Part shown: one piece after another, positions 15,344 to 32,065 of the stretch
Layout: each line of letters begins with the position of its first letter
Numbering within the stretch: position 1 is the first letter of the stretch
Source: Synergistaceae bacterium
Lineage (GTDB): Bacteria; Synergistota; Synergistia; Synergistales; Synergistaceae
Length of the DNA: 32,065 nucleotides
Reading direction: 5' to 3'
Assembly: GCA_031269915.1 (NCBI GenBank)
Contig: JAISYN010000202.1
Location: forward strand, 1-32,065
Position numbers and translations under genes: made by a program
Notes under the pieces: model-generated
Database searches by the model: none
What the model was told of the DNA's origin: nothing
What the model saw: only the letters and a program-made list of their open reading frames with translations

Positions 15344-16555
15344 ATGTTGAACTCGATAACCGCTGTCACTTATGAATTAGATGATATACAAGCCGGAATT
15401 TCAGAACTCGCGAACGAAACCCTGCGCAATATAAAATTTGGCAGGAACAGTTTCGGTCTGCTGCTGTGCGACTCTTACTCCGATCACAAGGCGCTCGCTG
15501 AGGGGCTGCGGCAAACGCTCGGAATTCCAATCGTCGGTTTTTCGGCCACGGCCGCGTTCAGCGGAAATGGCGAACTTTGTGATTCGGCGGCTATTCTGAC
15601 GGTCGTGACGTCCGACGACGTGCATTTTTCGATTGCGGTGAGCGAACCTCTCACAACGGACAATATCTTGGGGCAGATAGAGTCGACCTACAATAAGGCG
15701 AAGGCGGCCCTCGACGGCGAACCGGCGCTGATAATGGCCTTCCCTCCGTATATCCTCGGCATAATGATAGACATATATCCGCGCGAACTGGGCCGGGTGT
15801 CGGGCGGGCTTCCCGTATTCGGCGGACTGCCCTCTCACGACGAAGTATACGGCGAAAGCGCGGTGTACTGCGGAGACACCGCGGCCAGCGACAGAATGGC
15901 GCTGTTGCTGATGTCCGGGGCCGTGAAGCCTGTTATGACGGTCAAAAACTCGCTGGGCTCCCTTACCAACCTCAAACGCACCGTGACCAGCTCGAAGTGC
16001 AACGAAATATACAGGGTCGGCGACGAAACCTTCGTCTGTTTTCTGGAACGGTTCGGCATCGACGTCGCAAAATTTGCCGATTCTGACGAAAAGACCACAT
16101 TTTTCACATCTTACCCTCTGCTGGTCGAACATTCCGGAGGCGCGGACATGGACGGGATACCGGTCGTGCGTACTCTGCACGGAGTGGATTTCGAAACCGG
16201 TTCCGGAACGGCGATAGGCGAGGTGCCGCAGGGGAGCGTCATATCTGTCGGAATCCTTCAGAAGAGCGATATCGAGATGTCCGCCCGAAACGGCGTAAAA
16301 GACCTGTTGGATAAGATGAAGCTCAATGAGGACGCGGGCTATAAATACTCTATGGTGTTCGCCGTCTCCTGCGTCGCGAGGTATTACGTCATGGCGTCCG
16401 ACTCCACGCTCGAAACCGATGTGTTCCACAAAAATCTGCCGAGGGATATTGCCTTGTCCGGGTTCTACAGTTTCGGCGAGATCTGTCCCACGTCCATACG
16501 TGACAGGGCCAGTAACGCCGCGCATAACGAATCGCTGGTGATGATCGCCTTGTAA
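15344..16555 (+). CDS. FIST (N and C) domain-containing signal-transduction protein
   Basis: 403 aa. FGLLLCDSYSDHKALAEGLRQTLGIPIVGFSATAAFSGNGE, LPVFGGLPSHDE, VFAVSCVARYYVMASDSTLETDVFHKNLPRDIALSGFYSFGEICPTSI match the FIST_N/FIST_C pattern (GxSt/GF, C-terminal GFYSFGEI). Confidence 0.88.
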   Translation: MLNSITAVTYELDDIQAGISELANETLRNIKFGRNSFGLLLCDSYSDHKALAEGLRQTLGIPIVGFSATAAFSGNGELCDSAAILTVVTSDDVHFSIAVSEPLTTDNILGQIESTYNKAKAALDGEPALIMAFPPYILGIMIDIYPRELGRVSGGLPVFGGLPSHDEVYGESAVYCGDTAASDRMALLLMSGAVKPVMTVKNSLGSLTNLKRTVTSSKCNEIYRVGDETFVCFLERFGIDVAKFADSDEKTTFFTSYPLLVEHSGGADMDGIPVVRTLHGVDFETGSGTAIGEVPQGSVISVGILQKSDIEMSARNGVKDLLDKMKLNEDAGYKYSMVFAVSCVARYYVMASDSTLETDVFHKNLPRDIALSGFYSFGEICPTSIRDRASNAAHNESLVMIAL

Positions 16556-16591
16556 TTCCAAATCAAATTACGGTTCATTTTATATAGAAAA

Positions 16592-16646
16592 ACGCTGATT
16601 AATTCGCTTAAACGGCATTTCGCCGCTTAGGAACACGAACGCCGCA
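16592..16646. repeat. Copy 2 of the ~54-bp intergenic repeat
   Basis: acgctgattaattcgcttaaacggcatttcgccgcttaggaacacgaacgccgca; see 15181-15234. Confidence 0.85.
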
Positions 16647-16751
16647 AGGGTTTAACTCTTCGCCCTTCAGGCCTCTGGTAATAAATCAGCCCTGGAGCAG
16701 GGATAACATCGCAGTTGAAAGCCGCACGCCGCGGGGATATTCGAGGTAGTC

Positions 16752-18896
16752 ATGAACACTGAAAACGGATATCGGACTGACGGGCAGAATATGCAAAAAA
16801 TCGTTTCCGAATATCAAAAAGCCTGGAGAAAATTTCACAAGCTGGAGCGCAATTATAACCAGCTTTCGATGATGTACGAACATGTCGAGCATCTGAGGGT
16901 TTTCAACGAAAAGAAGCTTTCGGCTCAATTGCTCTATAACAAGCTTTTGCTCGAAACTTCCCCTATTCTGGTGTTTATCCTGGACAATGAAATGCGGTAT
17001 GTCGTCGGCACCAACAGACTGATGCGATTGTTATCATTTTCGGATCAGAAGGAAATGAACGGACTCTTGTTCCGGGAGATGTTTCTCCGAGTGACGTCGG
17101 AGCCGTGGGTGGCACGGATGGAGGAGTGGTTTCGCAAGTCGCTCGATGAAGCCGCCACTGTCTCCTTCAATGACAATGTGACGCTTACATCCGGCAAAAC
17201 GCTGCGCTTAGAGGGCGGAATTTCTCCGGCTGTCGATTCCAACGGGGCCTGCCTGGGGTTGTCGGTGGCCTTTCACGACGTCACGGAACTGTCGGCGGCG
17301 GTCGAGCGCGCGGAGGCCGCCGACCGGGCGAAGAGTACGTTTCTTGCCAATATGAGCCACGAGATACGCACGCCGATGAACGCCATAAAAGGCATGAGCG
17401 ACCTGCTCCTCCTTACAAAGCTCGACGATGTTCAAAGGGGCTACGCCCAAAGCATAACAAACGCGTCTCATTCGCTGCTCACGATAATCAACGACCTCCT
17501 GGACTTCTCCAAAATAGAAGCCGGCAAACTGGAACTTATCGAAGCCCCGTCTGATCTGGGCGCGCTTCTCACGGACATCTCCGGGCTGATAAATTTGAAG
17601 GCCTCCGAGAAGAACATACGATTCGTCTCTCATATCGATCCGCTCGCGCCGTCTTCGGTAATATGCGATGACATAAGGTTGAAACAGGTTTTACTCAACT
17701 TGCTGAATAATGCTGTGAAATTCACGCATCATGGGCACGTTGGGTTGTCGATGTCGTGCGAACTGGCGAAAGGCGACATGGTCAGGCTGTCTTTCGATGT
17801 GTCCGATTCGGGCATAGGTATAAAAAAGGGCGACATTGCGATGATATTTCAGCCGTTTGCCCAGACGGACAAATATATGAACCGCAGTGTCGAGGGCACC
17901 GGGTTGGGGCTTTCGATAAGCGACCGTCTGGTCAGGAAAATGGGAGGAAAACTCGATGTGAGGAGCAGATACGGAGAGGGGAGCGTTTTTCACTTCTCCA
18001 TAGAAGTCCGCGCCGCGTCGAGCATGTCGCTCGCCTATATTCAGAATCCGGCGTCAAAACGGATTCTGCTGCTGACGGACTCTCCGCGCCTCGACGAGTA
18101 CGGACTCATGCTGAAGGATCTGAGAGTACCGTACGACGCTTGCAGCGACGAGGCCGGATTTGCGAAGTTTCTCGCGGAAAATTCGTACACGCATCTCATA
18201 TACAGGTACGACGCGGGACGGCGCGTAATGGAGGACTATATGGACAGGATACCGCGGTCCTGCCGGATAGTCGCGATCAAAGACATAAGAGCCGCCGCCG
18301 GCCAGCACACGGGGGCAAATATAGAGGTGCTTTTCGAGCCCGTCCTGGTTATCGATATGGCGCATGCCGCGAACGACATGAAATCGGGGCGTGATCTCCG
18401 CGACGGCGTGAACAGAGAATCCATCGGAGCCTTCAAGTGCGTGGGCGCGGAAGTGCTTCTGATCGACGACAACGACATCAACCTGATGGTGGAAAGCGAA
18501 CTTCTGCGCCAGTACGACATAGAGGCCGATACGGCGGAAGGAGCGAAAATCGCTTACGATATGACAAAGGACAAGCGATACGACATCATTTTCATGGATC
18601 ACATGATGCCCGAGATAAATGGCATAGAAGCGACCAGGACATTGCGCGCCACCCCCGGCTGGACGCAAACGGTTCCGATAATAGCCCTCACCGCCAACGC
18701 CATCACCGGAATGAGGGATGCGTATATCTCGTGCGGCATGAGCGATTACATCAGCAAACCGATAGAGATACCGGCGCTCAACAACATATTGCTGAAATGG
18801 CTGCCGAAAGAAAAGATAGTCCCGGCCGCTCCGCCGGACGATACGTGCGCTAACGGCGTCCTTGTTTTACACGGACAAAAGGACGGGGCAGGTTAA
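16752..18896 (+). CDS. Cytosolic hybrid histidine kinase (coiled coil, PAS, HisKA, HATPase_c, degenerate REC, REC)
   Basis: H-box [25 protein letters not shown] (His codon 17358-17360), N-box [45 protein letters not shown]; receiver [10 protein letters not shown]...[18 protein letters not shown] (Asp codon 18597-18599)...TANA...SKPIEI. No obvious TM helix. Confidence 0.95.
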
Positions 18897-20499: not shown

Positions 20500-20528
20500 T
20501 CCACAAGCGCGCCATCTTTTAGTATAAT
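20500..20528 (+). promoter_or_regulatory. Candidate promoter of the TerB-C/ATPase module
   Basis: TATAAT at 20523-20528 with a weak -35 (TCCACA, 20500-20505) at 17 bp; about 150 nt upstream of the first gene. Confidence 0.35.
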
Positions 20529-20677: not shown

Positions 20678-21463
20678 ATGAGTTCTAATAGAACCGTGAA
20701 GCCGCTGACACTTTTGACTATAACAGAGCTGGGAAACCTCCTGGGTATTCGCGCCGGCGGAGAAAGCCTTACGGTCCGTTCGAAACTTGGCCTGTACGAG
20801 GCGGCAAAAGGAGTCGGCTATCTGGTTGTCCCGCACGTTCTCCCCGAATACGCGGATGTATCCGGGGATGATGTCGTCACCATCATGAAGATTAACCCTC
20901 GCGAGGAACTTTCGCAATTCTATCCCTTGGCGCACCTGATGGTAGAGCTGGGGATGTCGGTAGCTATGGGCAACGGCATGTTCGAGCCGTCCGAGATAAG
21001 ACAGTTGTCCTATATAATGGAGAAAAATTTTGACCTTACGGATACGGATGTCCGCGCACTTACCACTCTTAAGGATTTTTTGTCGCTTTATCCTCCCGAT
21101 ATAGATGTGATCGTAGAGCGCCTGCTGAAAATAATACCTCCGGACAAGCGCCGGCGGTTGGCTTGCGCGATAACGACGGTAGGCGCGGCCGGGTCCATAG
21201 GGAGCGGCAAGATAATAGCGCTCCGCAAGCTGTTCGCGGCTCTGGAACTCGACGAACGGGATCTGTATCAGCTCCTGATGGGTTTCCGCTACTCGGCGTC
21301 CGGTATCATAGAGGTCGAGGCGCTCTTTGAACAGCAGCCCAAAAAGCCGGTGGGTCCGGCGAGTTCTATATTGAACATAGACCTCGAAATAGTGGCCCGC
21401 AAGAAAAAAGAAACGGAATCGGTCGGAATGATACTGTCCGAGATTTTCGCGAAAGGTGCTTGA
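20678..21463 (+). CDS. TerB-like/TerB-C domain protein, compact form lacking TerB-N
   Basis: Helical pattern LAHLMVELGMSVAMGNGMFEPSEIRQLSYIME...RRRLACAITTVGAAGSIGSGKIIALRKLFAALELDERDLYQLLMGF resembles TerB (aDGxixxxE... / EikxLrklyxxLgLdxxxlyxxL). C-terminal NIDLEIVARKKKETESVGMILSEIFAKGA resembles TerB-C endings (lDxexIaxkxxEtxxVxxlLxeIF). Confidence 0.65.
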   Translation: MSSNRTVKPLTLLTITELGNLLGIRAGGESLTVRSKLGLYEAAKGVGYLVVPHVLPEYADVSGDDVVTIMKINPREELSQFYPLAHLMVELGMSVAMGNGMFEPSEIRQLSYIMEKNFDLTDTDVRALTTLKDFLSLYPPDIDVIVERLLKIIPPDKRRRLACAITTVGAAGSIGSGKIIALRKLFAALELDERDLYQLLMGFRYSASGIIEVEALFEQQPKKPVGPASSILNIDLEIVARKKKETESVGMILSEIFAKGA

Positions 21464-21466
21464 TTA

Positions 21467-24400
21467 ATGCTTCCCTTGCCTGATACAGATACATATCGAA
21501 GCAGACGGCTGGCCGAGGCCGCTTCGGCGAACAACGGCGCGGTAAAGATAACGCGGCGCGAACGGGACGCCATAGTGAAGTCCCTTTCCGCGGGGGTTGT
21601 GCCGACCATAGGCTTGCAACACATACAGGTCGATAGAAAAGACGAGATAATGGCGATGATAGGCGATTTGGAGCGCGTCCGTGAGGGCGGCGCTTCGGTG
21701 CGCTTCGTCGTCGGAAAGTTCGGTACGGGCAAAAGCTTCTTCCTCAACCTTACTAAAGCTGTCGCTATAGCGGAGGATTTTGTGGTGATGCACGCCGACG
21801 TGACTCCCAAAAGGAGGCTCGCGTCCACGACGGGGTACGCGCGGAATCTCTACGCCGAACTCGCGGCCGGAATGTCCGTAAACGCGAAGCCGGAAGGCGG
21901 AGCTATGGAGTTAGTCATAGAAAGGTGGATAAAAAGCTTTTCGGATCGGCGCCTGGATGGAGAAAACCTGCTTTCCGCCGTAAGAAACGGGCTTAGCCCG
22001 CTGCGCGATATGGTGGGGGGATTTCACTTCTCGGCCGCCATGACAAAGTGCTGCGAGGCGTATGTCGCCGGAGACGAGGACATGTTCGGTTCCGCGATAA
22101 GATGGCTCGCCGGCGGTTTCGGCAAACTGACCGACGCGAGGAACGAGCTTGGGATCGACTCGTTCATCAATGACAAGGATATCTACGATTACCTGAAACT
22201 CTGGGGCGCTTTCGTGCGGATTGCCGGGTTTTCGGGCATGTTCGTACTGCTCGACGAAATGGGGCTGTTCACCCAGGGCATCACCAACCGTGCCGCGCGC
22301 TCGAGCAATTATGAAGTGATTCTCCAGATTTTAAACGAGTGTCTCCAGGGCAGAGCCTCGGGGATAGGTTTTCTGTTCGCCGGCGCGGACTTTTTTCTGG
22401 ACGACCATGAAAGCGGTCTCATGAGCAATGGGGCGCTTTCGAGCCGTCTTGCCCCAAATCCCTTCGCTAGGGAGGGACTCAAGGATTTTTCAACCCCGGT
22501 CATGCGGCTGGGTGAATTTTCTCCGGAGGACCTATACCTGCTTCTCGAAAACATAAGAAACGTATTCGCCCTGGGGGACAGGTCGAAATATCTGATACCC
22601 GACGAAGCGATACGCTCTTTTATGAATCTCTGCGCATGGTCCCTCGGCGCCAAGTTTTACAGGACGCCCAGGGAAGCGGTAAAACTTTTCACGGGATTTT
22701 TGTCCGTCCTTCAGCAGAACGATCACGTCGGATGGCGCTCGCTGCTCGACGAAACCGTAATCGAAAAGGGCGGGGAAGATAACGGGCCCGAACCGGTAAA
22801 CCGCGGCGTACCGAAACCGGCGGATGCGTCGGATTCTGAGGCGGGACCTGACGCGGAGACCGCCGCGGAACCGGATGAAACGCCCGCTCCGGGATCTGTG
22901 CCGTCTTGTGCGGAACCAACGTTTACAATCGACACGGATATCATTGAACCCGTTTTTGCGCCGATGTTTGATCCGGATATGGTTTTTGATTTCGAGCGTG
23001 AAATGGGAATCGCGTTAGAGCCGGAATCGGAATTTGAACCCGCCGCGAAAACCGACAAAGACGACGACGGTTTTGGGTTTGATTTTAGAATGGGACCAGG
23101 CCCGGCTCTCTATGCCGTGAAGTCAAATCCGGCTGTATATGACCCAAATATTCTCTACATTTTACCGGACTCCGGTTCGTCGCGCGAAGTCTCCCTCCGG
23201 CTGCTCAAAACTGAGACGAGAGAGGAACCGGCTCCCGCGCCTGTTTACGACGCGCTTCCGCACGGCGAGGAGGACATGCGCGCGGGACGCGCTCTTTACG
23301 GCAACGAAAACGACCTGAAGGTCTATCTGCCAAATCTGATATCGAGAAATCCGCTCATAGGCATGGAACGCTTATCGCCGAGCGTCCTGAACGATCTGGT
23401 GCGCATGTCGGGGAAGATTCTCATCAACGCCTACAATAGTTACCTGCCGAACGGCTACGAGAAGCTGCTTCTCACCGTGACGCTCGTCAATATAGCGAAA
23501 CGGTGGATATCGGACGACGAGAACAAGTTCTGGAATTTCATAGGGCGCCAGTTCGGTTTTGAGAAAAGCGCGGAGGAAACCCTGCGCGGCACGATGTGCA
23601 ACGCCATTTATGAGACTATGAAATCCAATAACAGATTTTTCTCCATCGATCCCAAAACCGGTAAAAGGGAATACTACGCCACGATAATGGTTCACTCGCT
23701 TGCGCCGCGCGAAAGCATATTCTCGTTTCTCGATTTTCTGGCCGATTTTTACAGAAACAACCTGAGAGGGCTGCTCGTTAAAGGAGATCCCGCTCTTACC
23801 TCCATGACCGGCGAGATGCAGAGGCTGTTCTCGGATTGCCCGAACCAGGGCGCGGTGGAACTCAAGGGCGAATATTCCGGGCTGATGACGGGACTGGTCG
23901 TTCTTCTGCGAAAACGTCCGGTGTTTTTCAGAAATTTTGCCGGGGATATATTGGCCGGGATCGGCAGGCTTAATTCCGTAGGCAGGATTGAGAACAGGAC
24001 ATATCTCGACGAACTGCTGAACTGCTGGTTCCGGGAAAAACACGCCGTCCCGGTGAAGCCGCCTCGGGCGGCGGGATTTCAGACGGTAATGGAATACGGC
24101 GATATACGCCCGTTTTACGAGGTCACGAATTCAGGCGCGATCGAACTCGTCATACCTGATTTCCGCCTTAACCTCGAATCGAACAGCTCTCCCGATGTGT
24201 TCGCCGAGATTCTGTGCGGCGGCGGGTTTTCACGCGAGGCTCTGGGCGTATACGGCGACGGGTTCTCATGGACTGCGGAGGGGAAGAGAAGTCCCCTCTT
24301 TTCCATGTCCGATTTCGCGTCGAGGAACGATTTGCAGATAAGGGTCAAAATTTTCGTGAACGGCGAAACGGCGTATGACTCCGGAACGTCGCTCTGCCGT

Positions 24401-26092
24401 GAAGTCATTGTGTTCGAAGGTTATACGGAACTGCCGGTTCAGAATATCGGATCGGGTATCTTCAGCGTTTTCACGACCGGCGACAGGGAACTGTCCTTCG
24501 ATGAATCCGGCGACGACAGAATCGTACGATCCTCTTCCGGCCAGATGCGCGCTGTCAAATTTACCGAACGGTTCGGGTTATCCCTCGACGGGCATATAGT
24601 ATGCTCCGATTTCAAGGACGAGTCGGTCAAAATTTCCGTATCGGGGGAGCCCTGCGGCGGAGTGACGTACCTGTACCGCGGCGGCGAGTACAAGGTCTAC
24701 GGCGGGAATATTTCCCTCACGGCGAGAGTTCCGAAGGAACATAATCTCGACAGGTACGCTTTCAGGGTGAACGGGAAGAGCTATTCTTTCCGGGAGCGCC
24801 GCGCCGGCGGTCAGGACGAGACAGTGAACTGCGTTCTGGATGTGACCGAAGACATGCTGAACGACGGGTTTCTCGACGCCGTAGTCGCCGACGAGGGGAG
24901 AATCGCTGCGGAAGTCTGCCGTTTCCGTTGCTATGTCATAAGAGATATTCGAACCGTGTTCGACCGGCCGTATTACTTCGGCAGCGCGCACGGCGGAACG
25001 GCCAGGATCGAATACAGAGGCGGACAGACGGATTTTGGCATCTCTGGCGTCGAGGAAGGAGAATACAAGCGAATTCCGTTCGGCGAAGGAGATCTGAAAA
25101 TAAAAATCCCCATAATCAGATGGCGAATGGAGCCGTCATGGCCGGGCGGCGACGCGATCGAGGCCGGGACGGCGGTATGGCGCGGAAATATAACGGACGG
25201 CGCGCGTATCGTGACGATCTGCCCGGAGGAAATAACGTGCAAGCTGAGAATAGGGGAACAGGTAATCGAATGTACAAAACAGAGGGATTCGGCCGTCTTC
25301 GATATCGGAGAGCGCGTCTCGAAATCCGATTTTGCCAGGGACGAGGATATCGTTCCCGTTCAACTTATACTGGACAGCGGGGACGACAGTTCGCGGCGCG
25401 ATCTGTTTTCGATATGCATTAGGGAGACATTCAGGGAGAGCCCGAGGTTTGAAATGCGCGGCGGGACGCTCTCGCTCAAAAACCCGCAGGCTTTCATCGG
25501 CCCCGGCGACGCGAAGTTGGAATATTTCTTCAGGGGGAGAGAGAACGCGGCATACGAGATCAACGCGCGGAATGCAGTCATATCCGACGATTGCACGCTT
25601 CCTCACGGAAACTATCACTACAAGGTATTCTCGCTGTCGGGCGGGCTGTCCTCGGCTGATAAGAAGGTCGTCTGCTCCGGTTCGTGCATTTTGGGCGATG
25701 TGGATATATTCCACTTTGACAACAAGCTGTTGGAGATCAAGCGTGTCCGCGCCGGGTTCAAGGAATTTTTTATACTGCCGGTATACATCGAAAACCTTGA
25801 ATTCGCCGAGACGAAAGAAAAGTACAGTGACGGCGTAGCATACCCCATTTATCGCGGAACGTGCTATTATCTGAACCGCGACGATCAGAAAGTTTATTTT
25901 CCCGGGAGTTTCAATCCGGTTCAGGTCGTGATAATAAACGGGCGCGACATCTGTCTCTACAAGCAGGACGGGAATAAGCCGTATCTCGTATACGAATCGC
26001 GGCATAAGATAATTGATTCGCTCCCGGAAAACGGTAACGTTATCTCATACGTGCCGGATTTCTACGAATATGAGGCGCTGGAAGGGCATTGA
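21467..26092 (+). CDS. Giant BrxC/BrxD-like (DUF2791-type) P-loop ATPase with acidic linker, helical middle and long beta-rich C-terminal region
   Basis: 1541 aa. ITRRERDAIVKSLSAGVVPTIGLQHIQVDRKDEIMAMIGDLERVREGGASVRFVVGKFGTGKSFFLNL (Walker A 21713-21736), MFVLLDEMGLF (Walker B), NYEVILQILNECLQGRASGIGFLFAGADFFLDDHESGLMSNGALSSRLAPN resemble the BREX-associated ATPase head. Starts 3 nt after the upstream gene ends. Confidence 0.75.
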   Translation: MLPLPDTDTYRSRRLAEAASANNGAVKITRRERDAIVKSLSAGVVPTIGLQHIQVDRKDEIMAMIGDLERVREGGASVRFVVGKFGTGKSFFLNLTKAVAIAEDFVVMHADVTPKRRLASTTGYARNLYAELAAGMSVNAKPEGGAMELVIERWIKSFSDRRLDGENLLSAVRNGLSPLRDMVGGFHFSAAMTKCCEAYVAGDEDMFGSAIRWLAGGFGKLTDARNELGIDSFINDKDIYDYLKLWGAFVRIAGFSGMFVLLDEMGLFTQGITNRAARSSNYEVILQILNECLQGRASGIGFLFAGADFFLDDHESGLMSNGALSSRLAPNPFAREGLKDFSTPVMRLGEFSPEDLYLLLENIRNVFALGDRSKYLIPDEAIRSFMNLCAWSLGAKFYRTPREAVKLFTGFLSVLQQNDHVGWRSLLDETVIEKGGEDNGPEPVNRGVPKPADASDSEAGPDAETAAEPDETPAPGSVPSCAEPTFTIDTDIIEPVFAPMFDPDMVFDFEREMGIALEPESEFEPAAKTDKDDDGFGFDFRMGPGPALYAVKSNPAVYDPNILYILPDSGSSREVSLRLLKTETREEPAPAPVYDALPHGEEDMRAGRALYGNENDLKVYLPNLISRNPLIGMERLSPSVLNDLVRMSGKILINAYNSYLPNGYEKLLLTVTLVNIAKRWISDDENKFWNFIGRQFGFEKSAEETLRGTMCNAIYETMKSNNRFFSIDPKTGKREYYATIMVHSLAPRESIFSFLDFLADFYRNNLRGLLVKGDPALTSMTGEMQRLFSDCPNQGAVELKGEYSGLMTGLVVLLRKRPVFFRNFAGDILAGIGRLNSVGRIENRTYLDELLNCWFREKHAVPVKPPRAAGFQTVMEYGDIRPFYEVTNSGAIELVIPDFRLNLESNSSPDVFAEILCGGGFSREALGVYGDGFSWTAEGKRSPLFSMSDFASRNDLQIRVKIFVNGETAYDSGTSLCREVIVFEGYTELPVQNIGSGIFSVFTTGDRELSFDESGDDRIVRSSSGQMRAVKFTERFGLSLDGHIVCSDFKDESVKISVSGEPCGGVTYLYRGGEYKVYGGNISLTARVPKEHNLDRYAFRVNGKSYSFRERRAGGQDETVNCVLDVTEDMLNDGFLDAVVADEGRIAAEVCRFRCYVIRDIRTVFDRPYYFGSAHGGTARIEYRGGQTDFGISGVEEGEYKRIPFGEGDLKIKIPIIRWRMEPSWPGGDAIEAGTAVWRGNITDGARIVTICPEEITCKLRIGEQVIECTKQRDSAVFDIGERVSKSDFARDEDIVPVQLILDSGDDSSRRDLFSICIRETFRESPRFEMRGGTLSLKNPQAFIGPGDAKLEYFFRGRENAAYEINARNAVISDDCTLPHGNYHYKVFSLSGGLSSADKKVVCSGSCILGDVDIFHFDNKLLEIKRVRAGFKEFFILPVYIENLEFAETKEKYSDGVAYPIYRGTCYYLNRDDQKVYFPGSFNPVQVVIINGRDICLYKQDGNKPYLVYESRHKIIDSLPENGNVISYVPDFYEYEALEGH

Positions 26093-26107
26093 TGAACAAA
26101 AATCCTC

Positions 26108-26148
26108 AAACTGCGGGCAGAGCCCGAGGCCTTGAGCCCGCGGTTTTT
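26108..26148 (+). terminator. Rho-independent terminator after the ATPase gene
   Basis: aaactgcgggc (26108-26118) pairs with gcccgcggttt (26136-26146, one mismatch/GU), followed by T residues. Confidence 0.7.
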
Positions 26149-26165
26149 AGGAAAATTTCATTACC

Positions 26166-31898: not shown

Positions 31899-32065
31899 AT
31901 GGCGGAAAAATATCCGATAATCGGCATAGGAGCGAATGTCGACGACGATGCGCCCGGCGTTCAGAACATTTACGAGAGTTACGTGGACGCGGTTTACAAC
32001 GCGGGCTGCCTTCCTCTCATAATACCTCTTCCGAACATTTTGCTCAAACGCGAATACGAGGCGCT
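31899..32065 (+). CDS. Class I glutamine amidotransferase/peptidase C26 (gamma-glutamyl-GABA hydrolase PuuD-like), 5' part only
   Basis: My translation from ATG 31899: MAEKYPIIGIGANVDDDAPGVQNIYESYVDAVYNAGCLPLIIPLPNILLKREYEA; the (P)IIGI...Y..A...AG.LP..IP start is typical of peptidase C26. Runs off the window. Confidence 0.75.
   Translation, partial: MAEKYPIIGIGANVDDDAPGVQNIYESYVDAVYNAGCLPLIIPLPNILLKREYEA

Follow-up and report, generated by a model that had tools for sequence, protein, structure and literature searches.

The gene pair at positions 20678 to 26092 of a 32,065-nucleotide stretch of DNA from a Synergistaceae bacterium (the whole of this stretch is called the window below) raises the question of whether it is a new NTPase system or an altered form of one already described. 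The original prediction, made from the sequence, depicted a TerB/TerB-C-like protein followed by a BrxC/BrxD-type ATPase with a very long extension, under its own promoter and closed by a terminator. The two open reading frames agree exactly with that description: sngA' (20678..21463, 261 aa) and sngB-X (21467..26092, 1541 aa) lie on the plus strand and are 3 nt apart. The three ATPase motifs are likewise all present, namely the Walker A GKFGTGKS (residues 83-90; 21713..21736, +), the Walker B VLLDEMG (residues 260-266; 22244..22264, +) and the BrxC/D-family motif NYEVILQILNECLQGRA (residues 281-297; 22307..22357, +). Both Walker motifs were recovered in all six species carrying the pair, with N for K as the second Walker A residue in G001, and the third motif was matched in four of the six. 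An intrinsic terminator hairpin (26104..26154, +, within the region of about 26100-26155 3' of sngB-X; z -3.48) closes the pair, and shuffled sequences never fold as well. In contrast to the terminator, the promoter did not stand up: the promoter-like TCCACA-17-TATAAT (20500..20528, +) is a 10/12 match, seven such sites were found versus about four expected by chance, and the site is therefore unproven. In addition, no membrane-span-type hydrophobic stretch was found in either protein, and the suggestion of a large chaperone-like or surface-stress machine gained no support.

The ATPase domain (residues 28-429; 21548..22753, +) was assigned to the SngB / BrxC-BrxD group by Pfam, PADLOC and a phylogenetic tree. 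Pfam BrxC_BrxD (PF10923) spans the domain with an E-value of 1.4e-112, and PADLOC scored the 1541-aa protein as SngB, the ATPase of Shango, at 6.6e-128 versus 3.2e-32 for BrxD. The ATPase is a member of PF10923 of the SngB type, not of an unrelated ATPase family. Its NCBIfam BREX_BrxD score is 109.4 bits against a cut-off of 350, and with SngB far ahead of BrxD these scores rule out BREX membership; meanwhile, reading by eye recognised no PglX, PglZ, BrxL or other BREX gene among the open reading frames of the window. In a maximum-likelihood tree of 24 SngB ATPase domains, the six long ATPases form a single clade (100/100) with a long stem branch (0.59), nested among ordinary SngBs of Synergistota, Cetobacterium, Arthrobacter and Alphaproteobacteria. 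Most of the ordinary SngBs around this clade come from SngA-SngB-SngC operons, and the closest relatives of the long ATPase are Shango ATPases in such three-gene operons, often plasmid-borne. The long form is therefore the derived one, and the derivation of the pair from Shango is well supported. Shango comprises a TerB protein, an ATPase and a helicase, and has anti-phage activity (PMC10250203); the papers found do not describe its mechanism. Since this parent is already described (sngABC), calling the pair an undescribed NTPase system is too strong for the ATPase half, but the term fits the C-terminal module, here named X. Read from the sequences, the change is a loss of the helicase and of the two outer SngA domains and a gain of the ATPase extension. 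This agrees with the original prediction, which took the pair for a streamlined or repurposed form of the TerB / DUF2791-ATPase / helicase systems that had lost TerB-N and the helicase and gained more than 1000 aa.

The partner gene gave weak matches to PADLOC SngA (1.7e-4) and Pfam TerB (E 0.006). A SngA profile built locally from seven full-length SngAs, however, matches the 261-aa protein at 2.7e-17 over SngA positions 376-602 of 706, that is, over the TerB domain and the hinge. In full-length SngAs, Pfam detects TerB_N and TerB_C. When the protein was tested for TerB_N, TerB and TerB_C, neither TerB_N nor a TerB_C fold was found, TerB and the hinge being what is left, and the alignment shows the first ~25 residues of TerB_C as a remnant. 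The TerB half of the predicted TerB/TerB-C likeness thus stood, while the TerB-C half mostly did not. SngA' is SngA cut to its central TerB domain (residues ~90-195) and a hinge, NIDLEIVARKKKETESVGMILSEIF (residues 233-257; 21374..21448, +), which is common to full-length SngA, for example NMDLIRLRQEETRQVSGVLREIF in G073. The structural model of SngA' is poor (pLDDT 66) and had no match in the PDB. Short orphan TerB proteins akin to SngA' (L116 7533-8354, L117 7862-8638, L118 8126-8800 and L119 3059-3844) occur in two other genera, with the hinge missing and in genomes without SngB.

The third Shango component, the SngC helicase, is not encoded in the window, and none of the six pair-carrying species has an ortholog of it. 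The best genome-wide SngC matches in the 11 genomes of the genus have E-values of about 1e-47 to 1e-42 (2e-19 in G001) and occur with or without the pair; a true SngC, that of G151, scores 5e-268. In the window's genome the best match is a helicase of the MrfA/YprA type with MZB and HRQ1 winged-helix domains, and DruE gave no match at E <= 1e-30 in this genome (G000) or its congeners. SngC and DruE belong to one clade of SF2 helicases (PMC12278908), and in a mycobacterial Druantia III other DruE homologs from mycobacteria can take the place of DruE (PMC13316683). Elsewhere, other arrangements of the Shango genes were seen. In G151 (L074 / L122) roughly 11 kb containing other genes separate SngA-SngB from the SngC gene downstream, and on a Yoonia plasmid (L125 142-4002) an IS3-family element splits the SngA gene, leaving SngB and SngC intact downstream. 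Four loci (L079, L082, L083 and L084, in G145, G140, G144 and G141) contain SngB-SngC pairs with no SngA detected nearby; therefore, Shango parts have been lost in more than one way in Synergistota.

What the ATPase has gained is a variable, acidic and proline-rich linker (residues ~436-605; 22772..23281, +; 23% D/E, 14% P), fast-evolving and with an EPEPEP repeat in one species, and C-terminal to it the ~930 aa of module X. The predicted extension of more than 1000 aa is real. ATPase and X are continuous in four independent assemblies (G000, G001, G003 and G006), while the gene is cut by a contig break in G005 and G007. In two sub-clades dN/dS is 0.12-0.16 for the ATPase and 0.16-0.26 for X, so both halves are under purifying selection. 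Module X has no match by sequence in Pfam, NCBIfam, PADLOC or the PDB. With X as the query, 188 Synergistota genomes yielded two distant proteins (E 3e-50), a stand-alone protein of 1003 aa in G092 and one of 1537 aa in G093, which belong to two other genera of the phylum and align with X over its full length at 23% identity. Both genes lie directly upstream of a DruE-type helicase gene. In G092 the helicase is of the PADLOC DruE1 type (4e-183) and is followed by a NERD-UvrD protein (operon at L072 802-10676); in G093 it is PADLOC DruE (1.6e-77), the copy being truncated by the contig end (L073 101-7157). These operons are Druantia-like, the protein in the DruH position being not DruH and having no PADLOC model match. 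Beyond these two, X was found in no further DruE locus of Synergistota.

No X was found outside the phylum among 392 genomes, which is weak evidence of absence as about half of them come from other phyla. The contig scan, queried with genus-specific peptides, matched the genus only, and because of that choice of query X may be much more widespread. Viral contig and plasmid collections yielded no X, and the sole match in the 'phages' collection is an X fragment (HMM 1e-24) in MT836674.1, a human-gut scaffold deposited as phage, where it adjoins tyrosine recombinases; AbiEii and type I R-M genes were also read by eye. With its two tyrosine recombinases, this scaffold (L188) resembles a mobile element of bacteria, and the X remnant starts just past the second recombinase.

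A structural model of X built from six sequences (pLDDT 46) is all-helical over residues ~613-860 (23303..24046, +; predicted secondary structure, low confidence) and continues as a long series of beta strands (residues ~861-1541; 24047..26089, +). The best PDB matches found by Foldseek are multi-Ig or FN3 proteins (E 1e-5 to 1e-3, low TM-scores), and the matches in a viral library are similar, as obtained with the same low-confidence model. The beta part is probably a string of Ig-like sandwiches, a fold that is weakly supported because the model is poor. Among the residues invariant in all eight X sequences, aromatic and hydrophobic ones predominate, and no catalytic cluster can be recognised. 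In Druantia III, DruH, with its three Ig-like domains, is probably the sensor, and DruE is the helicase-nuclease effector (PMC13192584). X as a DruH homolog was rejected: PADLOC gave no DruH match, and no profile-profile signal was seen against one or seven DruH sequences (hhalign probability 0.1% with the seven-sequence profile), whereas the control comparison of the genus X with the stand-alone X gave 100% and 7e-57. Since X and DruH show no sequence homology, we claim no more than that X would work like DruH.

Of the 11 genomes of the genus, six contain the pair; those without it are up to 96% complete. The Synergistaceae genomes concerned are MAGs, perhaps from gut samples. Upstream lies cobB in G000 and G007; directly downstream lies a Peptidase_C26 (puuD-like) gene in G001, G003 and G005, which in G000 is found past the dpp operon (starting at 31899). 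In the window the setting consists of metabolic and transport genes and not of a defence island, while PIN, AbiEii, PemK/SocA and Fic genes are near the pair in G003 and G005. With flanks that vary among congeners, a fixed ancestral locus was ruled out, and the pair is not a fixed feature of all relatives. Beside cobB stand a FIST-like gene and, after it, a PAS-type sensor gene (window 15344-18896, named by eye); several congeners have the same block close to cobB.

On balance we favour, with slightly better than even confidence, a two-gene system descended from Shango, most likely anti-phage, in which X is the recognition part and the helicase is supplied in trans. A defence role of the pair is likely, given its relatives in Shango and Druantia, its patchy distribution and its neighbouring genes; the earlier suggestion of defence was right as a possibility. 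X is likely the infection sensor, because DruH, in the same place beside DruE, is the likely sensor and because X is without obvious catalytic residues. A helicase acting in trans is suggested by the replaceability of DruE by homologs, by the single clade of SngC and DruE, and by the MrfA-type helicase that the genome encodes. In such a system X, with its helical domain and Ig-like sandwiches, would bind a component of the phage or a DNA-protein structure linked to infection, as proposed for DruH, and the binding signal would be relayed via the linker to the ATPase. The ATPase would be the switch, kept ready by SngA' through the hinge, and ATP hydrolysis would in turn bring into play a DNA-processing helicase provided in trans, for which the best candidate is the chromosomal MrfA/YprA-type helicase of the window's genome. 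A bolder proposal, which we offer tentatively and consider rather doubtful, is that X is a transferable infection-sensing module in at least two unrelated defence chassis (SngB here, DruE in G092 and G093), and that SngA'-SngB-X is a helicase-less defence class borrowing a housekeeping MrfA/YprA helicase in trans.

The division of labour might also be reversed, X binding and cutting or blocking DNA in place of the lost SngC, with SngA' and the ATPase as the sensing parts. Exactly where X is found, SngC is lacking, and the Ig-bearing DruH itself is reported to have dimer-dependent nuclease activity (PMC13192584). However, the invariant residues of X described above do not look catalytic, and beside the X relatives the DruE helicase and, in G092, the NERD nuclease-helicase already provide enzyme activities, so that an effector role of X seems unlikely to us. 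We think it similarly improbable that the pair is a TerB-linked stress or DNA-repair machine serving the cell's own DNA, with no part in defence. The position on the chromosome, which in the window is among metabolic genes, would suit such a machine, as would the recurrence of similar neighbours (puuD or cobB) within the genus and the SngA-like/SngB pair that ends a ter cluster including TerD in G031; but a machine of this kind is hard to reconcile with the absence of the pair from five of the 11 congeners, with nearest relatives that are Shango ATPases of three-gene, often plasmid-borne operons, and with the toxin-antitoxin and Abi genes near the pair in G003 and G005. Very little credence is due to the idea of a decaying Shango remnant that drifts without SngC. 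It could appeal to the missing SngC, the two missing SngA domains and the orphan TerB genes without SngB in related genera, yet the frames are open in six species, the Walker motifs are intact, the addition is large and conserved, and dN/dS of 0.12-0.26 in two separate sub-clades led us to reject decay of the pair.

If the preferred reading of a Shango-descended defence pair holds, a variant that lacks the helicase and two SngA domains but retains ATPase, TerB core and hinge would show which parts make up a minimal switch. What is genuinely new is module X, together with its occurrence in both an SngB and a DruE context. The module ties Shango to Druantia-type systems, is in none of the family libraries searched, and is therefore a concrete target for finding the triggers of these systems.

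Compared with known systems, the pair is closest to Shango, sharing the gene order, an SngB-type ATPase nested in the Shango tree and an SngA-derived TerB protein directly upstream. It differs in lacking SngC, in an SngA' without TerB_N and TerB_C, and in an ATPase that bears the linker and the ~930-aa X; since the test for SngC was negative, the pair falls outside the definition of Shango. With BrxC/BrxD of BREX the ATPase shares the Pfam family PF10923, but its 109 bits fall far short of the 350 that NCBIfam requires for BrxD, and no other BREX gene was noticed in the window. At the end of the ter cluster of G031, which has a TerD-domain gene, an SngA-like protein and an SngB form a pair (L023 11646-14285) that resembles ours in having a TerB_C-type protein followed by an SngB-type ATPase and no helicase; there, however, the ATPase is short, the partner has GYF and TerB_C domains, and ter genes flank the pair. 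From Druantia III the pair differs in that homology between X and DruH is undetectable in sequence and that the genus has no DruE at E <= 1e-30; however, in G092 and G093 the X protein holds the position of DruH, immediately 5' of a DruE-type helicase, and X, like DruH, probably has Ig-like domains.
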